DNA from: Ignavibacteriales bacterium
GTDB lineage: Bacteria > Bacteroidota > Ignavibacteria > Ignavibacteriales > Melioribacteraceae
Assembly (NCBI GenBank): GCA_003599395.1
Contig: QZJX01000098.1
Location: 1 to 47,370, forward strand
Reading direction: 5' to 3'
DNA: 47,370 nt
The stretch's first letter is position 1; each line of letters opens with the position of its first letter. The notes below the pieces were generated by a model. That model saw only the letters and a program-made list of their open reading frames with translations. It ran no database searches and was not told the origin of the DNA. A program made the translations under genes and the position numbers. Below, one piece after another: positions 31,142-41,627 of this stretch.

Positions 31142-31167
31142 AAACTGCGGGATTAAACCCGCAGTTT
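31142..31167. terminator. Perfect 10-bp hairpin between hydrolase gene and dcw promoter
   Basis: AAACTGCGGG and CCCGCAGTTT form a perfect 10-bp stem around the 6-nt loop ATTAAA. It lies 19 bp after the stop of the alpha/beta hydrolase gene and could end that transcript. The U-tract on the minus strand is weak, so it may instead be a REP-like palindrome related in style to those at 37606-37743. Confidence 0.55.
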
Positions 31168-31186: not shown

Positions 31187-32131
31187 TTATCTGAGAAAAT
31201 TTTTGACTGCATCGTTGAAAACTTCCGGCTTTTCAAACTGCAAAAAATGACCGCATTCGGGGATCATAACTAATTCGCTGTTTGGAATTAACTCTTTTCC
31301 TTTTTGTGCAACTTCTGAAGTGTAGCCGGGATTGAGATAAGGATTAGGAATTAAGTTATCATTTTCACCAAAAACAATTAATGTTGGCTGTGTGATTCTA
31401 TCCAGTAAATTTACAACCGGTTGGTCAACCATTCCGTTTACGGATTGAACTACAGCGTAACAGTAATTATCAAATTGCTCAGCTTCGCGGAGTGCAATTC
31501 GATCTGTGATCATAAATTCAGCATCATCCGGCATGTTGTAAAAATTAGAATAGACATTTGCTCTAAGTTGATTAACAGGAGTTAGTTTAACTCCTTGGAC
31601 AGTCATCACTTCTCTAAACCATTCTTTTTGACCTTCGGTAAATGATTCTATTCCGGCAGGAGCAACTAAAATTAATCTTTTTACTTGTTGAGGATATTTA
31701 ATAGCCATAGTAATTGCTGCTTGCCCACCCATTGAATGTCCGGCAATATTTGCCTTTTCAATGTTTAATTTCTTCATAAAATTAAAAATTACATCAGCAT
31801 AAAATTCCGGAGTTCCTTCATGCGGTTCTTTGCTTGATTTTCCATAGCCGGGAAGATCGATTGCAATAGTTCTGTAATTATTTTTTAATTCTTCTATATT
31901 TTTCTTCCAAGCTGGTAAATAACTTCCTAAACCGTGGACAAATATTATCACTTCCTCGGATTCACCTTCATCAACAAATGCAATTGTTCGTCCATCGTCT
32001 AAGTTCACTTTGTGAACTTCATACGGATATTGTAATTCATCGAATTCCATTTTGCTTAAATTCCCATAAGGTGAACAGGCTATTAATAAACTCGTTACAA
32101 AAATTGCTAGTATTACTTTTATATTTCTCAT
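31187..32131 (-). CDS. Lipoprotein alpha/beta hydrolase (esterase/lipase-like)
   Basis: This 314-residue alpha/beta-fold hydrolase has a lipoprotein signal (LLIAC, lipidated Cys19), so it is anchored to a membrane outside the cytoplasm. The fold is complete: the oxyanion HG region IIFVHGLGSYLPAW, nucleophile elbow GHSMGG (Ser133), acid in FGENDN (Asp258) and histidine in ECGHFLQFE (His295). The closest general group is the MhpC/esterase type; the substrate is not readable from sequence. It lies 28 bp after an outer-membrane barrel gene and ends the gene run that starts with the GbsR-type regulator. In that setting an ester substrate outside the cell is plausible. Confidence 0.85.
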   Translation of the reverse strand: MRNIKVILAIFVTSLLIACSPYGNLSKMEFDELQYPYEVHKVNLDDGRTIAFVDEGESEEVIIFVHGLGSYLPAWKKNIEELKNNYRTIAIDLPGYGKSSKEPHEGTPEFYADVIFNFMKKLNIEKANIAGHSMGGQAAITMAIKYPQQVKRLILVAPAGIESFTEGQKEWFREVMTVQGVKLTPVNQLRANVYSNFYNMPDDAEFMITDRIALREAEQFDNYCYAVVQSVNGMVDQPVVNLLDRITQPTLIVFGENDNLIPNPYLNPGYTSEVAQKGKELIPNSELVMIPECGHFLQFEKPEVFNDAVKNFLR

Positions 32132-32159: not shown

Positions 32160-33707
32160 CTAGAACATAAGCCATTTAAATACTAGGAAAACTGTAAATG
32201 GATTATCCGGTTTGATATCAACATTCCCGTTAGTGACTTTGCTGTCATAAAAATCACCCAACCATAAATAAGCTCCGTGTAATTCGACATCCATAAATAC
32301 AGCCGGTTTGTAACCGATCATCGCATTAATTTCAGATCCAACCATTTTCCCGCCGCCGTTTGGTTCAACTAAACTTTGAGCGGCAGCAGCTCCAACTTTT
32401 GCAACCATTTTATTTGGGATAAGTGATTTCGAAAAATTGATTGTTCCGCCAACTTGTCCATAACCCATATTTGATAAGTCGTTGATTGCTGATACATACC
32501 TATTGACTACATTTCCGTGAGGATAAAGTAGATAAGCGCCATGACTTACCATAATTGCACCGGGAGAACCCCAGTTATTTCCTGTTAATATACCACTGTA
32601 TTTTTTATCATCAAGATTATTATCATCACCGGAAGCATAAAACATATCAAGCATAACATTATCATCTGCTGTTTGTCCGTATTTGTAGCCTGCTCTTAGA
32701 TTAGCTGCGTAGCCAAAAATATCTGCTGCTTTCTTGAATTCGCCACCTTGTTCGGATTGAACTTCACCCAAATTTGCCATGAAGAATCCGTTTAAGGACC
32801 ATCTCCCCATTGTAAATTCCGGGTTATAATTCCCGTGTGTACCCAACCAAATTACATCAGCTTTATAAGTATTGGCGCCGAGAGGGAAACGATAGACACC
32901 GTTATAAGCCGCAAGATTGCTGTTTAATCCTTGACCTAAAACTGAGACTCCACCTTCACCGTTTGCTCTATCATAAAGGTAGTAAGCTGTTACACCCTGC
33001 CGCCATTCTTTTGCAACATCCATTTCAAAATTTAATTCCCAAAGAGTAACGTCATCGTTTTGATTAATATTATTTTCATACAACTGATAATATCCCGCTT
33101 TTATACGATGATAATCCCAATCATATCTTGCAGAAATACCAACCGCATCACTTCCCCAATACATTAATCTGTAACCGGTTTTAAGCATTGTACTTGCAAA
33201 GGTTCGATATGGATTGTATGGAGTGTCGTAAAGTCTTTGTAAACCGAGATTAACAGCAAAATTTTTAAATGGTATAAGCTCCAATTCGATGTTTTGTGTT
33301 TGCAAGTTTACTTGGTCGGCAGATAGAGCTGAACCGAAATTGCCACCGGCACCGTAAGAAACATCTCCCCACGTCCAATCAATCTCGAAAGCCATTCTTA
33401 AAATCGCTTTCCCATTTAAGAGTTTGGGCTGATAAATAAAAAATGGAATGATTCTCTGTTCAAAGTAATTTGAATTCTGTCCGGTCGTTGTTGTGTTCCC
33501 GCCGAATAATCTTCCGACAGTCTGCCCTTTTAACAAATCATTGGTTGCATAAACATTATTACTTACACCTTGACTTATAAAGAAGGCAAGAAATTGAAAT
33601 TCTTGAGGATGTTTTGTAGGTATGTTGTTTTCATCATAATTCCAGTTACCAGATTGAGCAAGACCTACAAAAGTAGTTAACAAAAAAAATAAAATAAATT
33701 TTTTCAT
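32160..33707 (-). CDS. Outer-membrane beta-barrel protein, porin-like
   Basis: This 515-residue protein has a signal peptide (MKKFILFFLLTTFVGLAQS) and a long run of amphipathic strands rich in aromatic and glycine residues, such as NLGLQRLYDTPYNPYRTF and ELHGAYLWLGDFYDS. It ends with an aromatic residue (LVFKWLMF), the outer-membrane barrel signature. The size suits a 16- to 18-strand channel. It recalls alginate-export or substrate-specific porin families, but I cannot name one. It lies directly upstream of the lipoprotein hydrolase and may let the substrate or product cross the outer membrane. Confidence 0.75.
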   Translation of the reverse strand: MKKFILFFLLTTFVGLAQSGNWNYDENNIPTKHPQEFQFLAFFISQGVSNNVYATNDLLKGQTVGRLFGGNTTTTGQNSNYFEQRIIPFFIYQPKLLNGKAILRMAFEIDWTWGDVSYGAGGNFGSALSADQVNLQTQNIELELIPFKNFAVNLGLQRLYDTPYNPYRTFASTMLKTGYRLMYWGSDAVGISARYDWDYHRIKAGYYQLYENNINQNDDVTLWELNFEMDVAKEWRQGVTAYYLYDRANGEGGVSVLGQGLNSNLAAYNGVYRFPLGANTYKADVIWLGTHGNYNPEFTMGRWSLNGFFMANLGEVQSEQGGEFKKAADIFGYAANLRAGYKYGQTADDNVMLDMFYASGDDNNLDDKKYSGILTGNNWGSPGAIMVSHGAYLLYPHGNVVNRYVSAINDLSNMGYGQVGGTINFSKSLIPNKMVAKVGAAAAQSLVEPNGGGKMVGSEINAMIGYKPAVFMDVELHGAYLWLGDFYDSKVTNGNVDIKPDNPFTVFLVFKWLMF

Positions 33708-33773: not shown

Positions 33774-34526
33774 TTATTGTCTGACGTAAGTCTGAACATT
33801 AAGTGTACCGAGTGCACCGGCATTTGTACTTCCAAAACCACCTGCAGGAGTTGGAGGTGTCGCACCAATATCCGGAGTCGTTTGCACAATTTCATATTTC
33901 ATGTTGAAAGGTGAAGAATCAGCATAGATTTCAAAAATTCCGGATGAAGTAAGTGCTGCCGGACTTGTCTGTTCAGCTGTGATTTCAAAAATATTATTGA
34001 CAGTACTTTTTGTCATAGTAAAAGTACCTGTTAATGTAAATGATGCTCCGGATGTATCTGTTTGAACTACAGTATAACTTCCGTTTTGATTAAATGTAGC
34101 TTCAATTTTTGCTGTAGCAAAAAGAGCGACTAAAAGAGGAGCTACATTAGCACCTTCTGAAACCCAAGTACCGTAAAGACCAACAGCTGTAAAGTTAACT
34201 GTCGCATCAGCATTTAGAGTAACTTGTCCGGTACCTGTTGTAGTAAAATAATAATCGGTACCATTTGCAGTAATGGTATAGGTAGTTCCTGCTGTTAGAC
34301 CTGTAAATACATATGCGCCTTGTGCATCTGTGGTAGTTGTTTTTGTATCATCGGCACTCTTAGCTTCTACGGTTTGGTTAGCAACACCGTTACCATCAGC
34401 ATCCGTAATTGTACCGGATACTTTGTAAGTAGTAGTTCCAGTTGGACCTTCATCATCATCGCTGCTGCATGCGATAAAGTTAATTGCAACAAAAGCAATT
34501 AATAACAATGTGAGTAATTTTTTCAT
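33774..34526 (-). CDS. Surface lipoprotein with carboxypeptidase-regulatory-like and lipocalin-like domains
   Basis: This 250-residue lipoprotein has a lipobox ending FIAC (Cys20), followed by SSDDDEGP. This acidic segment after the lipid cysteine resembles the lipoprotein export signal used for surface exposure in Bacteroidota. Residues of about 33-115 look like a carboxypeptidase-regulatory-like beta-sandwich (VSGTITDADGNGVANQTVEA). The rest, from LYGTWVSEG, resembles a lipocalin-like domain. No enzyme motif is seen, so it may bind a ligand or a surface partner. It lies between the acyl-CoA ligase gene (24-bp gap) and the porin-like gene (66 bp plus a terminator). Confidence 0.8.
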   Translation of the reverse strand: MKKLLTLLLIAFVAINFIACSSDDDEGPTGTTTYKVSGTITDADGNGVANQTVEAKSADDTKTTTTDAQGAYVFTGLTAGTTYTITANGTDYYFTTTGTGQVTLNADATVNFTAVGLYGTWVSEGANVAPLLVALFATAKIEATFNQNGSYTVVQTDTSGASFTLTGTFTMTKSTVNNIFEITAEQTSPAALTSSGIFEIYADSSPFNMKYEIVQTTPDIGATPPTPAGGFGSTNAGALGTLNVQTYVRQ

Positions 34527-34550: not shown

Positions 34551-36071
34551 TTAGTTAGTTTGTTTTAGGTGTATCTCGAGTAATTTTTTCTTATCAATTT
34601 TACCGGCTTCATTTTTTGGTAATTCATCTAGTATTTCAAAATATTTAGGAATTTTGTACTTGGCTAAATTTCCTGTACAGATTTTTTTTAATTCGTCTTT
34701 ATTTAATTTAGAATTTTCTTTAAGAGATAAATATGCTTTGCCAACTTCGCCCCATTTCTCGTCAGGTACTCCAATAACAGCAACTTCTCTTATAACATCA
34801 TTAGTGTACAAGAAGTTTTCAATTTCGGAAGGATAAACATTTTCTCCGCCGCTTATATACATGTTCTTTTTGCGGTCAACTACATAATAAAAATCCTCTT
34901 CATCTTTACGAACCATATCACCTGTGTGAAACCATCCATCTGTAATTGATTCATTTGTTTCTTTTTCTTTTTGCCAATAACCCGGTGTAACAACCGGAGA
35001 TTTCAACCATAATTCACCGACTTCATTTATTCCAAGCTCATTACCTTTATCATCAACTACTTTTGCTTCTACATAAAAGTTTGTAAAACCTATTGAACCT
35101 TTTTTCCGGATTGCATCATCTTGATGAAGTGAGAAGCAATTCGGTCCAACCTCCGTGAGTCCATAACCTTGCCTTATGAACACACCTTTTTCATGCCACT
35201 TGTTTATTAAAGGAATAGGCATTGGGGCGCCACCAACAATTGCATATCTTACCGATGAAAGATCAACTTTATCGAAATATTCAGATTCAGCCATCATTTG
35301 CAACATTGTAGGAACGCCAAATAAAATTGTCGATTTCTCTTTTTCCATTAATTGTAAAATTAGATCGGCGTCAAATTTTGTTAATAAAGTATGAGATGCT
35401 CCGTGGTGCATAAATGGAGTAAACAAAACATTCCAACCGCCGGTATGAAAAAACGGAGCAAAACTTTGTGTATGATCTTGTGAAGACAAATCTAATCTTA
35501 ATGCAGTATTAATTGAATTCCAATACAACATCTTATGAGTTATAATTGCACCTTTTGATAATCCGGTTGTCCCTGCCGTATATAGAATCATTACAGGATC
35601 AGATTCTTGAATTTTGTGATCATATTTAAAATCTATTAGCTGAATTTTTTCTTTGCTGAACTTAGTAATTATATCCAATGACAATTTTATCGGAATCGAG
35701 TTAATTGTTTTCAGCCTTTTTACTTCTTCTTCAAACTCTGTTTCATACAAGAATAATTTTGGTGCAGCGTCTGCAATTAAAGTATCCAGTTCTCTTGGAG
35801 TCAATCTAAAATTCAATGGAACTAGTATTGCGCCTATCTTAACGCAAGCCGAAAACAAAAAGACAAACTCAGATTTATTTTTTGAATAGATTGCTACTCT
35901 ATCTCCCTTTTCAATTTTCAATTCATTTCGAAGATGATTCGCAAGTTGATTGGCTCTATTATTAAAATCGTAATAGTTCCATTCCAAACCCGTTTCATAT
36001 TCTCTTATGAATAAACGATTGGGAGTATATTTTGCCCACCGTGCTATCCAGTCAAATTGAGTATTAAACAC
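34551..36071 (-). CDS. Acyl-CoA ligase (AMP-forming), long-/medium-chain type
   Basis: This 506-residue ANL-superfamily enzyme activates a carboxylic acid to its CoA thioester through an acyl-AMP. Visible motifs are the phosphate loop ILYTAGTTGLSKGAIITH, the ATP-binding QGYGLTEVG, the hinge region GWFHTGDMVRKDEEDFYYVVDR with GGENVYPSEIE, and the catalytic lysine in EAGKIDKKKL. The length is typical of FadD-like or medium-chain ligases. It overlaps the upstream symporter gene by 8 bp, so import and activation are likely coupled. Substrate unknown; context suggests a (hydroxy)acid. Confidence 0.9.
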   Translation of the reverse strand: MFNTQFDWIARWAKYTPNRLFIREYETGLEWNYYDFNNRANQLANHLRNELKIEKGDRVAIYSKNKSEFVFLFSACVKIGAILVPLNFRLTPRELDTLIADAAPKLFLYETEFEEEVKRLKTINSIPIKLSLDIITKFSKEKIQLIDFKYDHKIQESDPVMILYTAGTTGLSKGAIITHKMLYWNSINTALRLDLSSQDHTQSFAPFFHTGGWNVLFTPFMHHGASHTLLTKFDADLILQLMEKEKSTILFGVPTMLQMMAESEYFDKVDLSSVRYAIVGGAPMPIPLINKWHEKGVFIRQGYGLTEVGPNCFSLHQDDAIRKKGSIGFTNFYVEAKVVDDKGNELGINEVGELWLKSPVVTPGYWQKEKETNESITDGWFHTGDMVRKDEEDFYYVVDRKKNMYISGGENVYPSEIENFLYTNDVIREVAVIGVPDEKWGEVGKAYLSLKENSKLNKDELKKICTGNLAKYKIPKYFEILDELPKNEAGKIDKKKLLEIHLKQTN

Positions 36072-37581
36072 TTTTCTTGCTCCTTGTAACTAGGTATAAT
36101 ATTCCTCCAACAAGTATAGATAACAATATTGCCATCGCTGCTGCAACACCCGGATTTTCTCCGGTGGCAATTGTAAACGGAACTCCAATTTGTCCATAGT
36201 AAAAACTAAAATGAACAACAACCGCAGTCAATGATGCTATAATTGCTACATTCTTTTTTACATCTTTCAAAAACATTCCGAATAATATAGGAACGAACGC
36301 TGCGGAGAAATAAGCATACACTCCATTCTGTGCAAATATAGCAACGCTTAGTTTTGGGTTTATTAATTGATCATATGATAATAGAATAGCAACCAAGCCT
36401 ATAAGTGCAATAACAATTTTGTTAAGTCCAATCTGAAACTTTTCTCTTTTTATTTCATCCATTGGATAATACTTGCCAAATAACGGCTCGGCAATGTCCG
36501 AAGTAACAGTTGTTGCGAGTGCTTGAATTAATCCTTCAAGAGTTGAGATGCCTGCGGAAATCAATCCCATAACTACTATTAGTCCAATAAATACCGGAAA
36601 CTCAGCAACAACATATGCCGAGACTACTCCATCTAGTTTTAAAGGAACACCATCAACTGTAAGATCGGGAAAAGTGATTCGAGCATACAATCCAGCAAAA
36701 ACAACAAAGAAGAAAATTAGCTCTGTAATTACACCAACAAACAAATATCTATTTACATCCTTATCGGTTTTCAATAAAAGTGATTTGGTTATTATGTGCG
36801 GTTGACACACAATTGCAACACCAACAATAATTTGAGCAATAATTATTTCAAAAAAATCTCTAAATAAAAAACTTGAATCATTTGTAAAACCGATTAGTTT
36901 GGGATCAATAGATTCGAGTTTATTTAGAAATCCATTTATTCCTTCGCTGAAATGTTCGTAACCGGAACCTAGCAGTATAAAAGCTACAACAAGCATTAAC
37001 ACTGCTTGAATAGTATTTGTGTACACCATTGAATTTGCACCGCCAAACATCATGTAACCGAATATGAAAACAATAATTCCGATCATCATATAAATTTCAT
37101 CTACGTTTAATGATTTTGAAAGTACTTTCGTTAAGCCAACTGCTATAAGAACTATGAATGTTATAAGAAGCAAAGAAAGAAATGCAAAGAACATAGAATA
37201 ACTTTTACTATTATATCTCGTTCCCATCCATTGAGCCATGCTTAGTGCCTTAACACTACTTCCATGTTTTCTAAAACCTTTCGTGAGAACAACAAGAGAT
37301 ACCATTGCTGCAATAGGTAAAGCGATAGCATAAGATATAACTCCGCTGATACCATAATAGGCAATAAAACCCGGATTGATTATAAACGTTGCCGCGCTAG
37401 TCATTGAAGCAGCTAAAGCTAAACCAACTGCAACCGGAGAAAATGAAATATTACCGACTGCATAGTCTTTCATAGTTTTTATTTTCAACGCACCGCGAAC
37501 AACAAAAAATAGAATAACGGATGCATAAAGCACTATTAAAACCCAGCTCGCAATAACTAATTCATTTGATGCAATGTTCAT
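36064..37581 (-). CDS. Sodium:solute symporter (SSS family)
   Basis: This 505-residue inner-membrane protein has about thirteen predicted helices and the SSS-family layout. A substrate/Na+ region (VGLALAASMTSAATFIINPG, about 50-70) matches the unwound TM1 of the LeuT fold. GGANSMVYTNTIQAVLML matches the family signature region, and a conserved late-helix region GLISAGISTLEGLIQALAT follows. SSS proteins import organic acids, sugars or amino acids with sodium. The acid-transport branch would fit the cotranscribed acyl-CoA ligase, which it overlaps by 8 bp. A 165-bp gap with REP-like palindromes separates it from the KAS III-like gene. Confidence 0.92.
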   Translation of the reverse strand: MNIASNELVIASWVLIVLYASVILFFVVRGALKIKTMKDYAVGNISFSPVAVGLALAASMTSAATFIINPGFIAYYGISGVISYAIALPIAAMVSLVVLTKGFRKHGSSVKALSMAQWMGTRYNSKSYSMFFAFLSLLLITFIVLIAVGLTKVLSKSLNVDEIYMMIGIIVFIFGYMMFGGANSMVYTNTIQAVLMLVVAFILLGSGYEHFSEGINGFLNKLESIDPKLIGFTNDSSFLFRDFFEIIIAQIIVGVAIVCQPHIITKSLLLKTDKDVNRYLFVGVITELIFFFVVFAGLYARITFPDLTVDGVPLKLDGVVSAYVVAEFPVFIGLIVVMGLISAGISTLEGLIQALATTVTSDIAEPLFGKYYPMDEIKREKFQIGLNKIVIALIGLVAILLSYDQLINPKLSVAIFAQNGVYAYFSAAFVPILFGMFLKDVKKNVAIIASLTAVVVHFSFYYGQIGVPFTIATGENPGVAAAMAILLSILVGGILYLVTRSKKSV

Positions 37582-37605
37582 CTATCTTTCTCTGTGATTT
37601 TTATA

Positions 37606-37743
37606 ATGGGGCTAAAGCCCATAATCAATTTACTTTTTTAAAACCGTCAGCTAAAGCAGACGGCAATTTTCAATTTTGTTTAATTACCGTTGACTTTAAG
37701 TCAACCGTTCAAAAACAGTTAACTCTCCGAGGCTTCAGCCCCA
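37606..37743. repeat. Cluster of REP-like palindromes
   Basis: Four short palindromes lie within 138 bp: 37606-37622 (GGGGCTAAAGCCC), 37644-37663 (CCGTC, A, GCTAAAGC, A, GACGG), 37689-37705 (GTTGACTT, T, AAGTCAAC) and 37731-37740 (GGCTTCAGCC). The outer two are inverted copies of each other (ATGGGGCTRAAGCC at either end), giving a bounded unit. Most share a GCT..AGC-like core. This resembles bacterial interspersed REP/BIME elements. No transposase is present here. Confidence 0.75.
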
Positions 37744-37746
37744 TTT

Positions 37747-38736
37747 TTACCATTTAAAAAGAGCACTTGCAAATGCAAGTCCGCCACCTGATCCCATAAA
37801 AATTATTCTATCACCGATTTTTAATTGCCCTTTTTCAAAAGCATCATTTAATGCCATAGGAATACAAGCGGAACCGGTATAACCAAATCTGTCCATAATT
37901 GTATGAGCTTTATTTCGATCAACTTCTAGGTTATCCATTGTCTCCCAAATTGAATTGATGTTGATTTGAGTAAAGAAAAAATGATCAACATCTTTTGGGG
38001 ATAGATTCTCTTTAGAAGTAATTTCATTTATCATTCTTGTCCATGTTGTCGGATTAATTTCTTTCGGAAATTTTTTAACAAATTTTAAAAGGTGTTCTTT
38101 ATTTTCAACATCGGCCGGAGTAAGTGGATGTCTTGTTCCGCCTCCATAAATTCCCATCCATTCATTATATTGTCCTTCACTATATAATTTACTTCTTATA
38201 AATCCTCTATTGCTATTTTCTTCTGCAGATAAAACAACCGCACCCGCACCATCAGCAAATAGTGTTACAGTTTTTTTATCTTGTAGATCTAAATACTTGC
38301 TCATAGCGTATGCACCTACAACAAGAATATTTTTATAATTTTCATCCGCTCTTATAAATTTTGATGCAACATCGATTCCTGTGACAAAACCTGCACAAGC
38401 TGTATTAATATCAAACGTACCGGCGTTTACCGCTTTTAATTTATCTTGAACAACCGAAGCAGTAGAGGGTGAAATAAAATCCGGTGTATCTGTTGATATG
38501 ATAATCAATTGCAAATCTTCAGGTTTTAGATTCGCCCTGTCTAAGACTATTTTTGCGGCTTCAACTGAAAGATCACTTGTTGATTGATCTTTGCTCGCCC
38601 ATCTTCTTTCTTTAATAGTTAGATTACTTTTTAGCCAAGTATCAACATCTTCACCCAATAGTTCATTAAAATATGAGTTTGGTATAATACGATCGGGAGC
38701 ATAAGCTCCAATTGATTTTATAACTGCATTTCTCAT
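37747..38736 (-). CDS. KAS III (FabH)-like thiolase-fold protein with altered active site
   Basis: This 329-residue thiolase-superfamily protein has the KAS III layout. The nucleophile is Cys114 in NTACAGF. The usual His of the PHQANxR motif is Thr256 (FFFTQININ), and the usual Asn of GNTSAA is Tyr286 (FGYTGSACIP). The terminal glycine loop (MGSGGGLAF) is kept. Loss of both decarboxylation residues argues against ordinary malonyl-ACP condensation. It could act as an acyltransferase, a non-decarboxylating synthase or a thiolytic enzyme. The SDR gene lies 17 bp upstream. No ACP or malonyl transferase is nearby, which also points away from standard fatty-acid synthesis. Confidence 0.85.
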   Translation of the reverse strand: MRNAVIKSIGAYAPDRIIPNSYFNELLGEDVDTWLKSNLTIKERRWASKDQSTSDLSVEAAKIVLDRANLKPEDLQLIIISTDTPDFISPSTASVVQDKLKAVNAGTFDINTACAGFVTGIDVASKFIRADENYKNILVVGAYAMSKYLDLQDKKTVTLFADGAGAVVLSAEENSNRGFIRSKLYSEGQYNEWMGIYGGGTRHPLTPADVENKEHLLKFVKKFPKEINPTTWTRMINEITSKENLSPKDVDHFFFTQININSIWETMDNLEVDRNKAHTIMDRFGYTGSACIPMALNDAFEKGQLKIGDRIIFMGSGGGLAFASALFKW

Positions 38737-38753: not shown

Positions 38754-39497
38754 TTAAATTACTATTCCGCCGTCAACACTTAATGTTGTTCCATTAATAA
38801 ATGATGCTTCATCGCTTGCAAGGAAACAATATGCATTAGCGATGTCCTCGGGTCTTCCGAGTCTACCAAGCGGAGTTTTTTCTTCCATCGTTTGGATAAC
38901 TTTTTCAGGCATGGCGGCTACCATTTCAGTTGCAATAAAACCAGGTGCAACCGCATTCACGCAAATTCCTTTTCGTCCTAATTCGCGTGCCCAAACTTTT
39001 GTCATTCCAATTACACCGGCTTTAGTTGCCACGTAGTTGGTTTGTCCGAAGTTTCCATATAACCCAACAACCGAAGAAGCATTAATAATTCTTCCGCTGC
39101 CATTTTCAATCATATGGTCCGCAATTGCTTGAGTACAATTGAAGACACCAGTTAAATTAACATCAATAACTTGCTGCCATTGTTCTTGTGTCATTTTTTT
39201 TAGGGTGGAATCTTTCGTAATTCCCGCGTTGTTAATTAGTATGTCAACCTTTCCAAATTCTGAAATTACTTTTTGCATCGTTTCTTTCACTTCAATAGCA
39301 TTAGCGACATTCACTTTGTAGAAAATCACATTTTGATCATCGCTTTTAAATTCGTTTGCTAAAGAATTTCCTTTATCCGAATCAAGATCCCAGATTGCAA
39401 CATTTGCGCCTTCATTGACAAACTTTTGAACGGTTGCTTTTCCGATCCCTTGTGCGCCGCCTGTAATTACTGCTGATTTTCCTAGTAATTTTTTCAT
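38754..39497 (-). CDS. Short-chain dehydrogenase, FabG-like, probably NAD-dependent
   Basis: This 247-residue classical SDR has the TGGAQGIG nucleotide loop (12-19), NNAG (89-92), Asn114, Ser141/142, Tyr155 and Lys159 (YVATK). The C-terminal half has the PGFI and SVDGG segments usual in 3-oxoacyl-ACP reductases. The residue at the end of the second strand is Asp37 (IWDLD), which in SDRs favours NAD(H) over NADP(H). That hints at an oxidative, hydroxyacyl dehydrogenase role. The gene starts 17 bp downstream of a palindrome shared with the regulator gene promoter and is the first gene after the regulator. Confidence 0.88.
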   Translation of the reverse strand: MKKLLGKSAVITGGAQGIGKATVQKFVNEGANVAIWDLDSDKGNSLANEFKSDDQNVIFYKVNVANAIEVKETMQKVISEFGKVDILINNAGITKDSTLKKMTQEQWQQVIDVNLTGVFNCTQAIADHMIENGSGRIINASSVVGLYGNFGQTNYVATKAGVIGMTKVWARELGRKGICVNAVAPGFIATEMVAAMPEKVIQTMEEKTPLGRLGRPEDIANAYCFLASDEASFINGTTLSVDGGIVI

Positions 39498-39514: not shown

Positions 39515-39543
39515 TTTTTAACGTTTGAAAATTTTAAAACGTT
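39515..39543. promoter_or_regulatory. Operator A, palindrome upstream of the SDR gene
   Basis: A 24-bp palindrome (39520-39543) with arms AACGTTT and AAACGTT pairs at 11 of 12 positions. With its 5' flank (TTTTTA from 39515) it matches operator B at 40071 in 24 of 29 positions, with the same centre of symmetry. It is the likely binding site of the GbsR-type regulator encoded just upstream. Confidence 0.75.
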
Positions 39544-39577
39544 CAATCAATAAAAATTCTCTTTGTCGATTGTTAGT

Positions 39578-40066
39578 CTATTTAGAATATATTTTTTCTC
39601 GCTCTAATTCCCACTCGTCCAAAAAATTATTGTAATGCTTTTCAGTCAATTGGTAGAACCTATGCATTTCAGTTAATCTATTCTTGAGAGTATTTAAATT
39701 GGAGTTTTTTTCTTTTGCTACTAACGATTTAAGTTGTTTTGCGAGACGTGTATTTGATTTAATCAATTCAAAGTTGTTACGGAATGCATTTTCAAAAATT
39801 TCCGGCTGAATTTCATAATAATCTTTACGGCTGTTTTCGTGCCAAACTCTCCTTATAAGATTTCGATCACGCAAGCGTTTCATTATTTGACTAATTGGTC
39901 CTTTGCTTCTACCAAGATTTTTACAAATTTCATCAAGCGAGAGTGGCTCAGGGGAAGAAATTAGCAGAGCAACAACGTGACCCATCAATTTACTTAAACC
40001 AAAGGCTCTGTAGGCATGACCAAAATTTTGTATGATCTCTTTTTTGATTCGTTCTTCTGAAGTCAT
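39578..40066 (-). CDS. GbsR/MarR-type transcriptional regulator
   Basis: This 162-residue protein matches the GbsR branch of MarR-like winged-helix regulators. After FGHAYRAFGLSKLMGHVVALL comes a winged helix with LSLDEICKNLGRSKGPISQIMKRL and a wing at NLIRRVWHENSRKDYYEI. A helical C-terminal part (about 115-160) probably dimerises. GbsR proteins usually repress neighbouring uptake or metabolic genes and respond to a small ligand. The start codon lies only 4 bp from a palindrome (operator B), and a near copy lies before the next gene, so it probably regulates itself and the locus. No clear Shine-Dalgarno is present, perhaps because the operator occupies that space. Confidence 0.87.
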   Translation of the reverse strand: MTSEERIKKEIIQNFGHAYRAFGLSKLMGHVVALLISSPEPLSLDEICKNLGRSKGPISQIMKRLRDRNLIRRVWHENSRKDYYEIQPEIFENAFRNNFELIKSNTRLAKQLKSLVAKEKNSNLNTLKNRLTEMHRFYQLTEKHYNNFLDEWELEREKIYSK

Positions 40067-40070
40067 AACA

Positions 40071-40104
40071 TTTTTATCGTTTGAAATTTTTGAAATGATA
40101 AAAA
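40071..40104. promoter_or_regulatory. Operator B, palindrome upstream of the regulator gene
   Basis: A 34-bp imperfect palindrome has outer arms TTTTTATC and GATAAAAA and pairs at 14 of 17 positions. It is centred exactly as operator A. Where operator A has an A/T pair at the seventh position and its partner, this one has T/A, so symmetry is kept while sequence differs. It abuts the regulator start codon (40066), suggesting autorepression. Confidence 0.75.
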
Positions 40105-40163
40105 CTTAGGAAATACCAAAATTAAATGCAATTGAATTCGTAACACTTAGAATAAATTTAATA

Positions 40164-40202: not shown

Positions 40203-41627
40203 TTATCTCTTTCTAAACTCCTGCATGAATTGGTTGGTAATAAATCGATCGTAGATAATCAATGTATTTTCATCGTTGTTAGCGTCGGCATTTTCACTCC
40301 AGTTGGCGGAACCGACAATTACAACCCCTTCATCTATTATCATTGTTTTCGCGTGCAGTTTTCTAGAATCTCTATCGCGGTAAACCGGTGGGATATTTTT
40401 CCATCTTCTCATTGGATGAAGTTCTGAAGTTTGTTTTGGTGTTCGTCCCGTCATATTAATTGAAGCAGACCACCATTGATTCCAGAAAGTTGCATCAAAA
40501 ATTCCTTTCAAATCAAAATTAGTTCTTTCGCCTTGTAAGTCCTCAATACTTCCTTCCCATTTAACTTTCAACACATCAACTAAAGCTTGATAGGAAAATG
40601 CAAATATTGTAAAATAAACAGATCTATTAGCTTCTCGTTCAACTGTATTAATTATTTTATCAAGCACTTTATCGGATGGACTAAAATAGACTTCAACTCT
40701 TCTACCATCAATATTAATTATGTGTTGAGTGTTGTCTGTTTTTCGTTTATTGAATCTTGCAAAAGTCGGATTAGGTTTCCGGTTATTGCCGCCCCACATT
40801 TCCTCAAATTCTTTTAAATATATTGAAGCTAGTTGTCTATTTCTTATTTCAACTATGTGGTTTTGATTTCCATTTAAGTTGCCATTTTGCATATCTTTTT
40901 CGGTTCCGTACAAACCCGTTATTGTAAAATTCCATGAACCGGTAAAGACCCACTGTGTATCTATTATTGCTATTTTGTTATGCATTTGAGCACCAGGTGA
41001 ATAATAACAATCGCTGCAGCCGGGTTTTAGTTCTGCATCGACTAAAAGATGACCGGAAATATTCTTGTTGCCGATTTTTAGTGTTACATTTTCATAGTCA
41101 TTGAAAGATATCGGGAGTTTATATTTTTTTCTAAGTGTTGTATCGGTCACAGTAAAAATTGGTGAATCGGCAAGAAGCATAATGTCATCATCTGTACCAG
41201 GTATTAAATCCTTGCCCCGACTCATCTTTTCTAGATACAATCTCATTTGTGTATATCGTTCAACTGTTGAAGTATCTTCAACCATTGATTCATCATGACT
41301 CTTTGCATCAATGATAAATCTAATTTGTATTCCCTCACTTGCTCGTTTAATAAGTGCGTCAATTAATTTCGGCAGATTAATTTCGTAGGCCATCATATCA
41401 ATTTTTGAAGTTGCTTTTTCAATTCTATTGATCAACACTTCTTCAAAGTTAATGTTGAATTTTGCTTTATTATTTGGGAAAGCATAACTGGTGTCTGCAT
41501 CTTTATTAAAATAAACATTAATTTCGGATTGAAATTCTTGATGTTGTCTTACTACTTCTGTTGAGCAAGAGACAAAAATGATTATTAAAAATATGAATGG
41601 GAATGATTTCTTAAAAGTTGTTTTCAT
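40203..41627 (-). CDS. Phospholipase-D-family lipoprotein with two HKD motifs
   Basis: This 474-residue protein has a lipoprotein signal (IIIFVSC, Cys21) and two complete HxKxxxxD motifs: H216, K218, D223 (MHNKIAIID) and H425, K427, D432 (LHAKTMIID), each followed by the GSxNW/GSANW element. Both HKD halves are needed for the shared active site of PLD-family phosphodiesterases, which act on phospholipids or nucleic acids. Lipid anchoring puts it outside the cytoplasm. A CSDC pair (204-207) sits just before the first motif. It lies upstream of the regulator but a 136-bp gap with operator B separates them, so it is probably not part of that operon. Confidence 0.9.
   Translation of the reverse strand: MKTTFKKSFPFIFLIIIFVSCSTEVVRQHQEFQSEINVYFNKDADTSYAFPNNKAKFNINFEEVLINRIEKATSKIDMMAYEINLPKLIDALIKRASEGIQIRFIIDAKSHDESMVEDTSTVERYTQMRLYLEKMSRGKDLIPGTDDDIMLLADSPIFTVTDTTLRKKYKLPISFNDYENVTLKIGNKNISGHLLVDAELKPGCSDCYYSPGAQMHNKIAIIDTQWVFTGSWNFTITGLYGTEKDMQNGNLNGNQNHIVEIRNRQLASIYLKEFEEMWGGNNRKPNPTFARFNKRKTDNTQHIINIDGRRVEVYFSPSDKVLDKIINTVEREANRSVYFTIFAFSYQALVDVLKVKWEGSIEDLQGERTNFDLKGIFDATFWNQWWSASINMTGRTPKQTSELHPMRRWKNIPPVYRDRDSRKLHAKTMIIDEGVVIVGSANWSENADANNDENTLIIYDRFITNQFMQEFRKR

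Follow-up and report, generated by a model that had tools for sequence, protein, structure and literature searches.

The gene of a GbsR-type regulator, P0001, lies between two palindromic sites, O1 and O2 (Table 1), in the window, that is, the whole 47,370-nucleotide stretch of contig QZJX01000098.1 analysed here. Taken as a whole, it is very probable that O1 and O2 are operators of P0001, and that P0001 is an autoregulated, ligand-released repressor of itself and of the adjoining SDR operon. The operator pair is real and well conserved across the order, and a weaker form is found across the phylum; binding by P0001 would follow from the comparison of sequences. The operon that P0001 would repress is most likely one for carboxylate or ester uptake.

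Table 1. Features of the regulator locus and of the predicted target operon in the window.
Feature	Position	Strand	Remarks
Predicted regulator promoter	40103..40131	-	-35 TTGCAT (40131-40126), 17-bp spacer, -10 TAAGTT (40108-40103)
Operator O1 (26 bp)	40075..40100	.	Overlaps predicted transcription start of regulator gene; 8 bp 5' of regulator ATG
GbsR/Mj223-type winged-HTH regulator, P0001, 162 aa	39578..40066	-	Sequence, profile and fold matches
Operator O2 (26 bp)	39519..39544	.	Between regulator and SDR genes; 21 bp 5' of SDR ATG
FabG-like SDR (3-oxoacyl reductase)	38754..39497	-	Above NF004198 and TIGR01830 cut-offs; next gene after regulator in 36/36 loci
KAS III (FabH)-like protein	37747..38736	-	Cys kept; usual triad His and Asn replaced by Thr and Tyr
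Sodium:solute symporter (SSS family)	36064..37581	-	PF00474; conserved operon member
Acyl-CoA ligase (AMP-binding)	34551..36071	-	PF00501; conserved operon member
Predicted lipoprotein	33774..34526	-	Relatives in same position at other loci
Predicted secreted/outer-membrane barrel-like protein	32160..33707	-	No Pfam match; barrel inferred from sequence; conserved operon member
Lipoprotein alpha/beta hydrolase, probable last gene of unit	31187..32131	-	PF00561; same place in G208

The palindromes at 39515-39543 and 40071-40099 are identical at 24 of 29 positions, with mismatches at positions 7, 17, 22, 26, and 28; this direct comparison bore out the match given in the preliminary description. 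Dyad pairing amounts to 11/12 for 39520-39543, 9/12 for 40076-40099, and 14/17 for 40071-40104. O1 scored 31.2 bits and O2 32.8 bits; with a leave-out PWM, trained without the window species and without its nearest relative, the scores were 31.1 and 32.6 bits, and no other place in the 47-kb window exceeded 3.6 bits. In the 2.45-Mb draft genome, the exact form of the pattern AWCGTTT-N10-AAAYGWT, proposed together with the palindromes, occurs at O1 and O2 and nowhere else. G208, a closed genome from the window species, likewise has both sites and the operon.

The joint operator motif obtained from related genomes, WAWCGTTTGAAAW/WTTTCAAACGWTW, forms a 26-bp palindrome in which the middle, GAAAWWTTTC, is conserved, and not two arms flanking a free N10. 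The consensus proposed earlier is incomplete. No variation was found in TTT (positions 6-8) and AAA (positions 19-21) among 53 distinct sites. In 38 of 49 distinct sites, AA or TT stands at the centre in place of a self-complementary AT or TA (p 1e-4), so the operator is slightly asymmetric. At position 7 and its partner, A/T in one window palindrome is replaced by T/A in the other, as had been noted. The swap is present, but as evidence of preserved symmetry it did not hold over the wider set, in which 27 of 53 sites are symmetric at this position while 22.3 are expected (p = 0.11), and no half-site pair showed significant covariation between the arms over the 53 sites.

O1 is kept in 22 members of the order with identical promoter geometry. 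The 22 regulator upstream regions, aligned on O1, possess the position-conserved sequence TTGaC-17-TaagTT directly 5' of the operator. Transcription of the regulator gene is expected to start about 7 bases past the -10 element, a predicted position that falls within O1. The locus thus shows the arrangement by which an autoregulated dimeric repressor is recognised, a dyad operator at the regulator's own predicted promoter, kept across orthologs. The distance from O2 to the SDR start codon is 9-23 bp in the order. A position-conserved SDR promoter was not seen in the aligned upstream regions of the order, where just a T-rich stretch is found 5' of O2; the block at O2 may therefore fall on read-through transcription or on a separate promoter. 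The O1-O2 distances of 528-587 bp showed no phasing at 10.4-10.6 bp (p 0.16-0.20), and DNA looping by helical phase was rejected. An intrinsic terminator 5' of O2 was likewise rejected, as a simple scan returned a terminator-like hairpin in just 3 of 31 loci.

The best solved relative of P0001 is Mj223 (PDB 1KU9), with an E of 2.4e-14 over residues 5-144 and a profile E of 1.3e-20. The AlphaFold2 model of P0001 has a pLDDT of 93, and its full-length fold matches are three, 5jbr, 1ku9, and 4nb5 (Z 15-16 over ~150 residues), the match to 1ku9 having a Z of 15.5 over 150 residues at 3.1 A. As in Mj223, the model indicates an N-terminal winged HTH, a linker, and a C-terminal helical dimerisation domain. 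Pfam MarR and MarR_2 scores were under their cut-offs. NF047500 (CudC) is the family matched by most of the aligned relatives of P0001, and 42 of 42 aligned family members match this model, with E values down to 5e-19. These matches agree with the earlier naming of the protein as a GbsR-type regulator. P0001 itself scored 46.4 bits against NF047500, for which the equivalog cut-off is 218, and thus belongs to a GbsR-like branch and is not the choline regulator. Identity with CudC/GbsR was also rejected by the neighbourhood, as genes for choline or betaine transport or oxidation were not found beside P0001, whose neighbours are the SDR, KAS III-like, SSS symporter, CoA ligase, lipoprotein, barrel, and hydrolase genes.

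The order of these seven genes is identical in G208, and the operon fits the uptake of a carboxylic acid or ester and its activation to a CoA thioester. Among 49 aligned KAS III-like proteins, Cys is present in all 49; the columns that we take, from knowledge of FabH, to hold the catalytic His and Asn contain Thr (48) or Ser (1), and Tyr (49), respectively. The KAS III-like enzyme probably performs a chemistry other than the ordinary FabH condensation. In a different family of the same class, PhaC (TIGR01836) is encoded beside the regulator; no match to TIGR01836 was found in the genome of the window or in G208. Since the species lacks phaC, a PHA synthesis locus was ruled out as the function of the window locus. 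The regulon in the window species appears to be a single locus. Further motif hits examined in its two genomes lie inside or across coding sequences, which spoke against a larger regulon, and no motif hit at E 0.2 or better was detected near the unlinked thiolase gene of G208 (1869513). Upstream of the regulator, and in the same orientation, is a phospholipase-D-like lipoprotein gene (40203-41627), which outside the window species is not among the conserved genes of the locus.

Close homologs of the regulator (strong matches only) were detected in 35 of 97 related genomes; one named homolog, with 94% identity, belongs to a Melioribacteraceae MAG. Most loci possess the palindrome both 5' of the regulator and between the regulator and SDR genes. 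The SDR-side site, corresponding to O2, was present in all order members examined, and so was the regulator-side site, except where a thiolase gene heads the unit. In the six thiolase-first loci with enough sequence, the upstream site was found before the thiolase gene and not before the regulator. In two relatives in the class the unit is headed by PhaE-like and PhaC genes, and in loci L029 and L172 the operator is located 5' of the PhaE-like gene. In other classes, a TonB receptor gene follows the regulator and has an operator site. The order-trained PWM was also run on 28 loci around more distant regulator homologs (30-57% identity, 335 kb), where it revealed 22 sites of at least 22 bits vs 0 in shuffles, nearly all of them 5' of genes for the regulator, a TonB receptor, an SDR, a ligase, or PhaE-like/PhaC. 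The motif therefore tags the first gene of the unit near the regulator, whatever that gene is. Class III PHA synthase genes (PhaC and PhaE-like) were observed directly 5' of the same regulator in some relatives (L030:3645-4754, L029, L172).

Co-occurrence of motif and regulator was evaluated with a sequence-only motif model run on the 97 genomes, a strong site being defined by a best-site E below 1e-3. A strong site was found in 32 of the 35 genomes with the regulator vs 3 of the 62 without it (Fisher p 8e-19; Mann-Whitney p 1e-15), p-values that overstate independence because the genomes are related. G018 and G083 possess motif sites despite having no regulator. The strongest exception is G084, with a site 5' of a lone thiolase gene (L130, G084:C126:9300-17300); directly behind this thiolase gene, a fragment of the regulator gene survives in broken form, covering residues 113-160 with one stop, and G084 seems to be a relative losing the regulator system. 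Because the palindrome pair is conserved and co-occurs with the regulator, the paired operators and autoregulated locus put forward in the preliminary description are well supported by comparison. Relatives across the phylum have the pair of regulator and site again, which appears to control an uptake-and-acyl-CoA operon together with the regulator itself.

In the mechanism that we propose, P0001 would bind as a homodimer, with a winged HTH for either half-site. At O1, the dimer would cover the predicted start of the regulator gene, resulting in self-repression. At O2, it would stop transcription into the SDR gene and the six genes that follow, either as a roadblock to read-through or by acting at an SDR promoter. 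Release would come from the substrate of the operon or a CoA intermediate, probably a carboxylic acid or its acyl-CoA.

We infer repression instead of activation from the position of the sites and from precedent. An activating role of P0001 at O2, alone or combined with repression, in place of a simple block of the SDR operon is unlikely: no SDR promoter could be recognised, so that more than one geometry is conceivable at O2, which favours such a role, but the short distance between O2 and the SDR start codon places the site downstream of the usual activator position, and the characterised GbsR-type regulators are repressors (PMC7396694, PMC6096048, PMC6207618). The resemblance of the two palindromes could also be a chance product of A/T-rich sequence. 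Counts of the proposed pattern with two mismatches (232/254) were no higher than those of a reversed control pattern (270/277), so the loose form represents background and is uninformative. However, both places are conserved in more than 30 genomes and a 27-bit gap separates them from the next best site in the window; chance has next to no probability left and can be regarded as already refuted by the comparative data.

Two further readings accept the palindromes as functional, and assign them differently. Regulators may have operators away from their own gene, and the sites could be real operators of another DNA-binding protein, the adjoining regulator being incidental. The co-occurrence of regulator and KAS III genes is nearly perfect, so that regulator-free operons are unusable as a comparison, which leaves some room for this reading. 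Against it, the motif tracks the P0001-type regulator among the 97 genomes, it marks varied first genes near the regulator (regulator, thiolase, TonB receptor, PhaE-like/PhaC, ligase), and a second conserved regulator was not seen in the loci; we therefore regard another protein as quite improbable. Even less probable is that the palindromes are RNA hairpins, acting as terminator, attenuator, or mRNA stabiliser, and not protein sites. The RNA of O1 folds somewhat better than shuffles (z -2.0), and the T-rich stretch and occasional terminator-like hairpins 5' of O2 would fit, but the RNA of O2 has no folding advantage over shuffles (z -0.02), the arms lack significant covariation, the GAAAWWTTTC middle is conserved although it would be loop and weak stem, and O1 overlies a predicted start and not a gene end. 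Operators of P0001 remain the preferred reading of both sites.

P0001 resembles GbsR, OpcR, YvaV, OpuAR, and CudC, which are dimeric repressors of the MarR superfamily modelled on Mj223, with inverted-repeat operators and autoregulation (PMC7396694, PMC6207618). GbsR of B. subtilis is an autoregulated repressor with A/T-rich inverted-repeat operators downstream of the transcription start, where it acts as a roadblock (PMC7396694); an operator downstream of the start is also found here, the start being predicted. In contrast, the five regulators control the uptake and synthesis of choline and glycine betaine, whereas P0001 adjoins an operon of SDR, KAS III-like, symporter, and CoA-ligase genes, and its 26-bp operator has a sequence of its own, unlike the operators of the GbsR group. 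Osmostress genes are the setting in which most GbsR-type regulators have been characterised. CydE of Alishewanella is, as proposed for P0001, a GbsR-type repressor of a non-osmostress operon; it protects TATTTCAGAAATTTCTGAAAGTTCA, and a footprinted site holds TTTCAGAAATTTCTGAAA, with the AAATTT-centred layout of the O1/O2 motif (PMC6096048). Unlike P0001, CydE controls cytochrome bd and is released by sulfate, and its half-site sequence differs from the P0001 motif. Mj223 is the solved structure closest to P0001 by sequence and among the three closest by fold. FabT, PhaR, and PhaQ are regulators of fatty-acid or PHA genes, and their targets are likewise FabG/KAS III/thiolase or phaC-type genes; they belong to families or subfamilies other than that of P0001. 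In the literature searched, largely outside subscription journals, neither a GbsR-type regulator of fatty-acid or PHA genes nor papers linking GbsR to Bacteroidetes regulons or PHA were found.

On a broader reading, to which we give an even chance, P0001 represents a GbsR-type branch whose 26-bp operator code is specific to it and conserved over much of the phylum. The branch would respond to a carboxylic acid taken up by the cell, or to the acyl-CoA of that acid, and regulate a set of uptake and acyl-CoA genes that varies between lineages. This set would comprise a TonB receptor or barrel, hydrolase, symporter, CoA ligase, SDR, and KAS III-like protein, with thiolase or PHA synthase in some lineages. 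A family survey of 2018 reported no consistent gene neighbourhood for the GbsR-type proteins of Bacteroidetes and archaea (PMC6207618). If true, the broader reading would supply a target for the Bacteroidetes proteins of that survey, provided that they belong to the branch of P0001. One GbsR-like branch gains a precise candidate operator and a conserved target operon, and we consider the locus of moderate interest because the branch had neither. The operator motif can be used for finding further regulon members, and the ligand of the regulator might reveal the substrate of the KAS III-like enzyme with its unusual active site.

Strong short hairpins with loops of the TTTAA/CTTTAG type (e.g. AACTGCGGGATTAAACCCGCAGTT) were also observed between and after the operon genes, at 31143-31166, 37686-37709, and about 37600-37745. 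These hairpins look like a dispersed repeat family.
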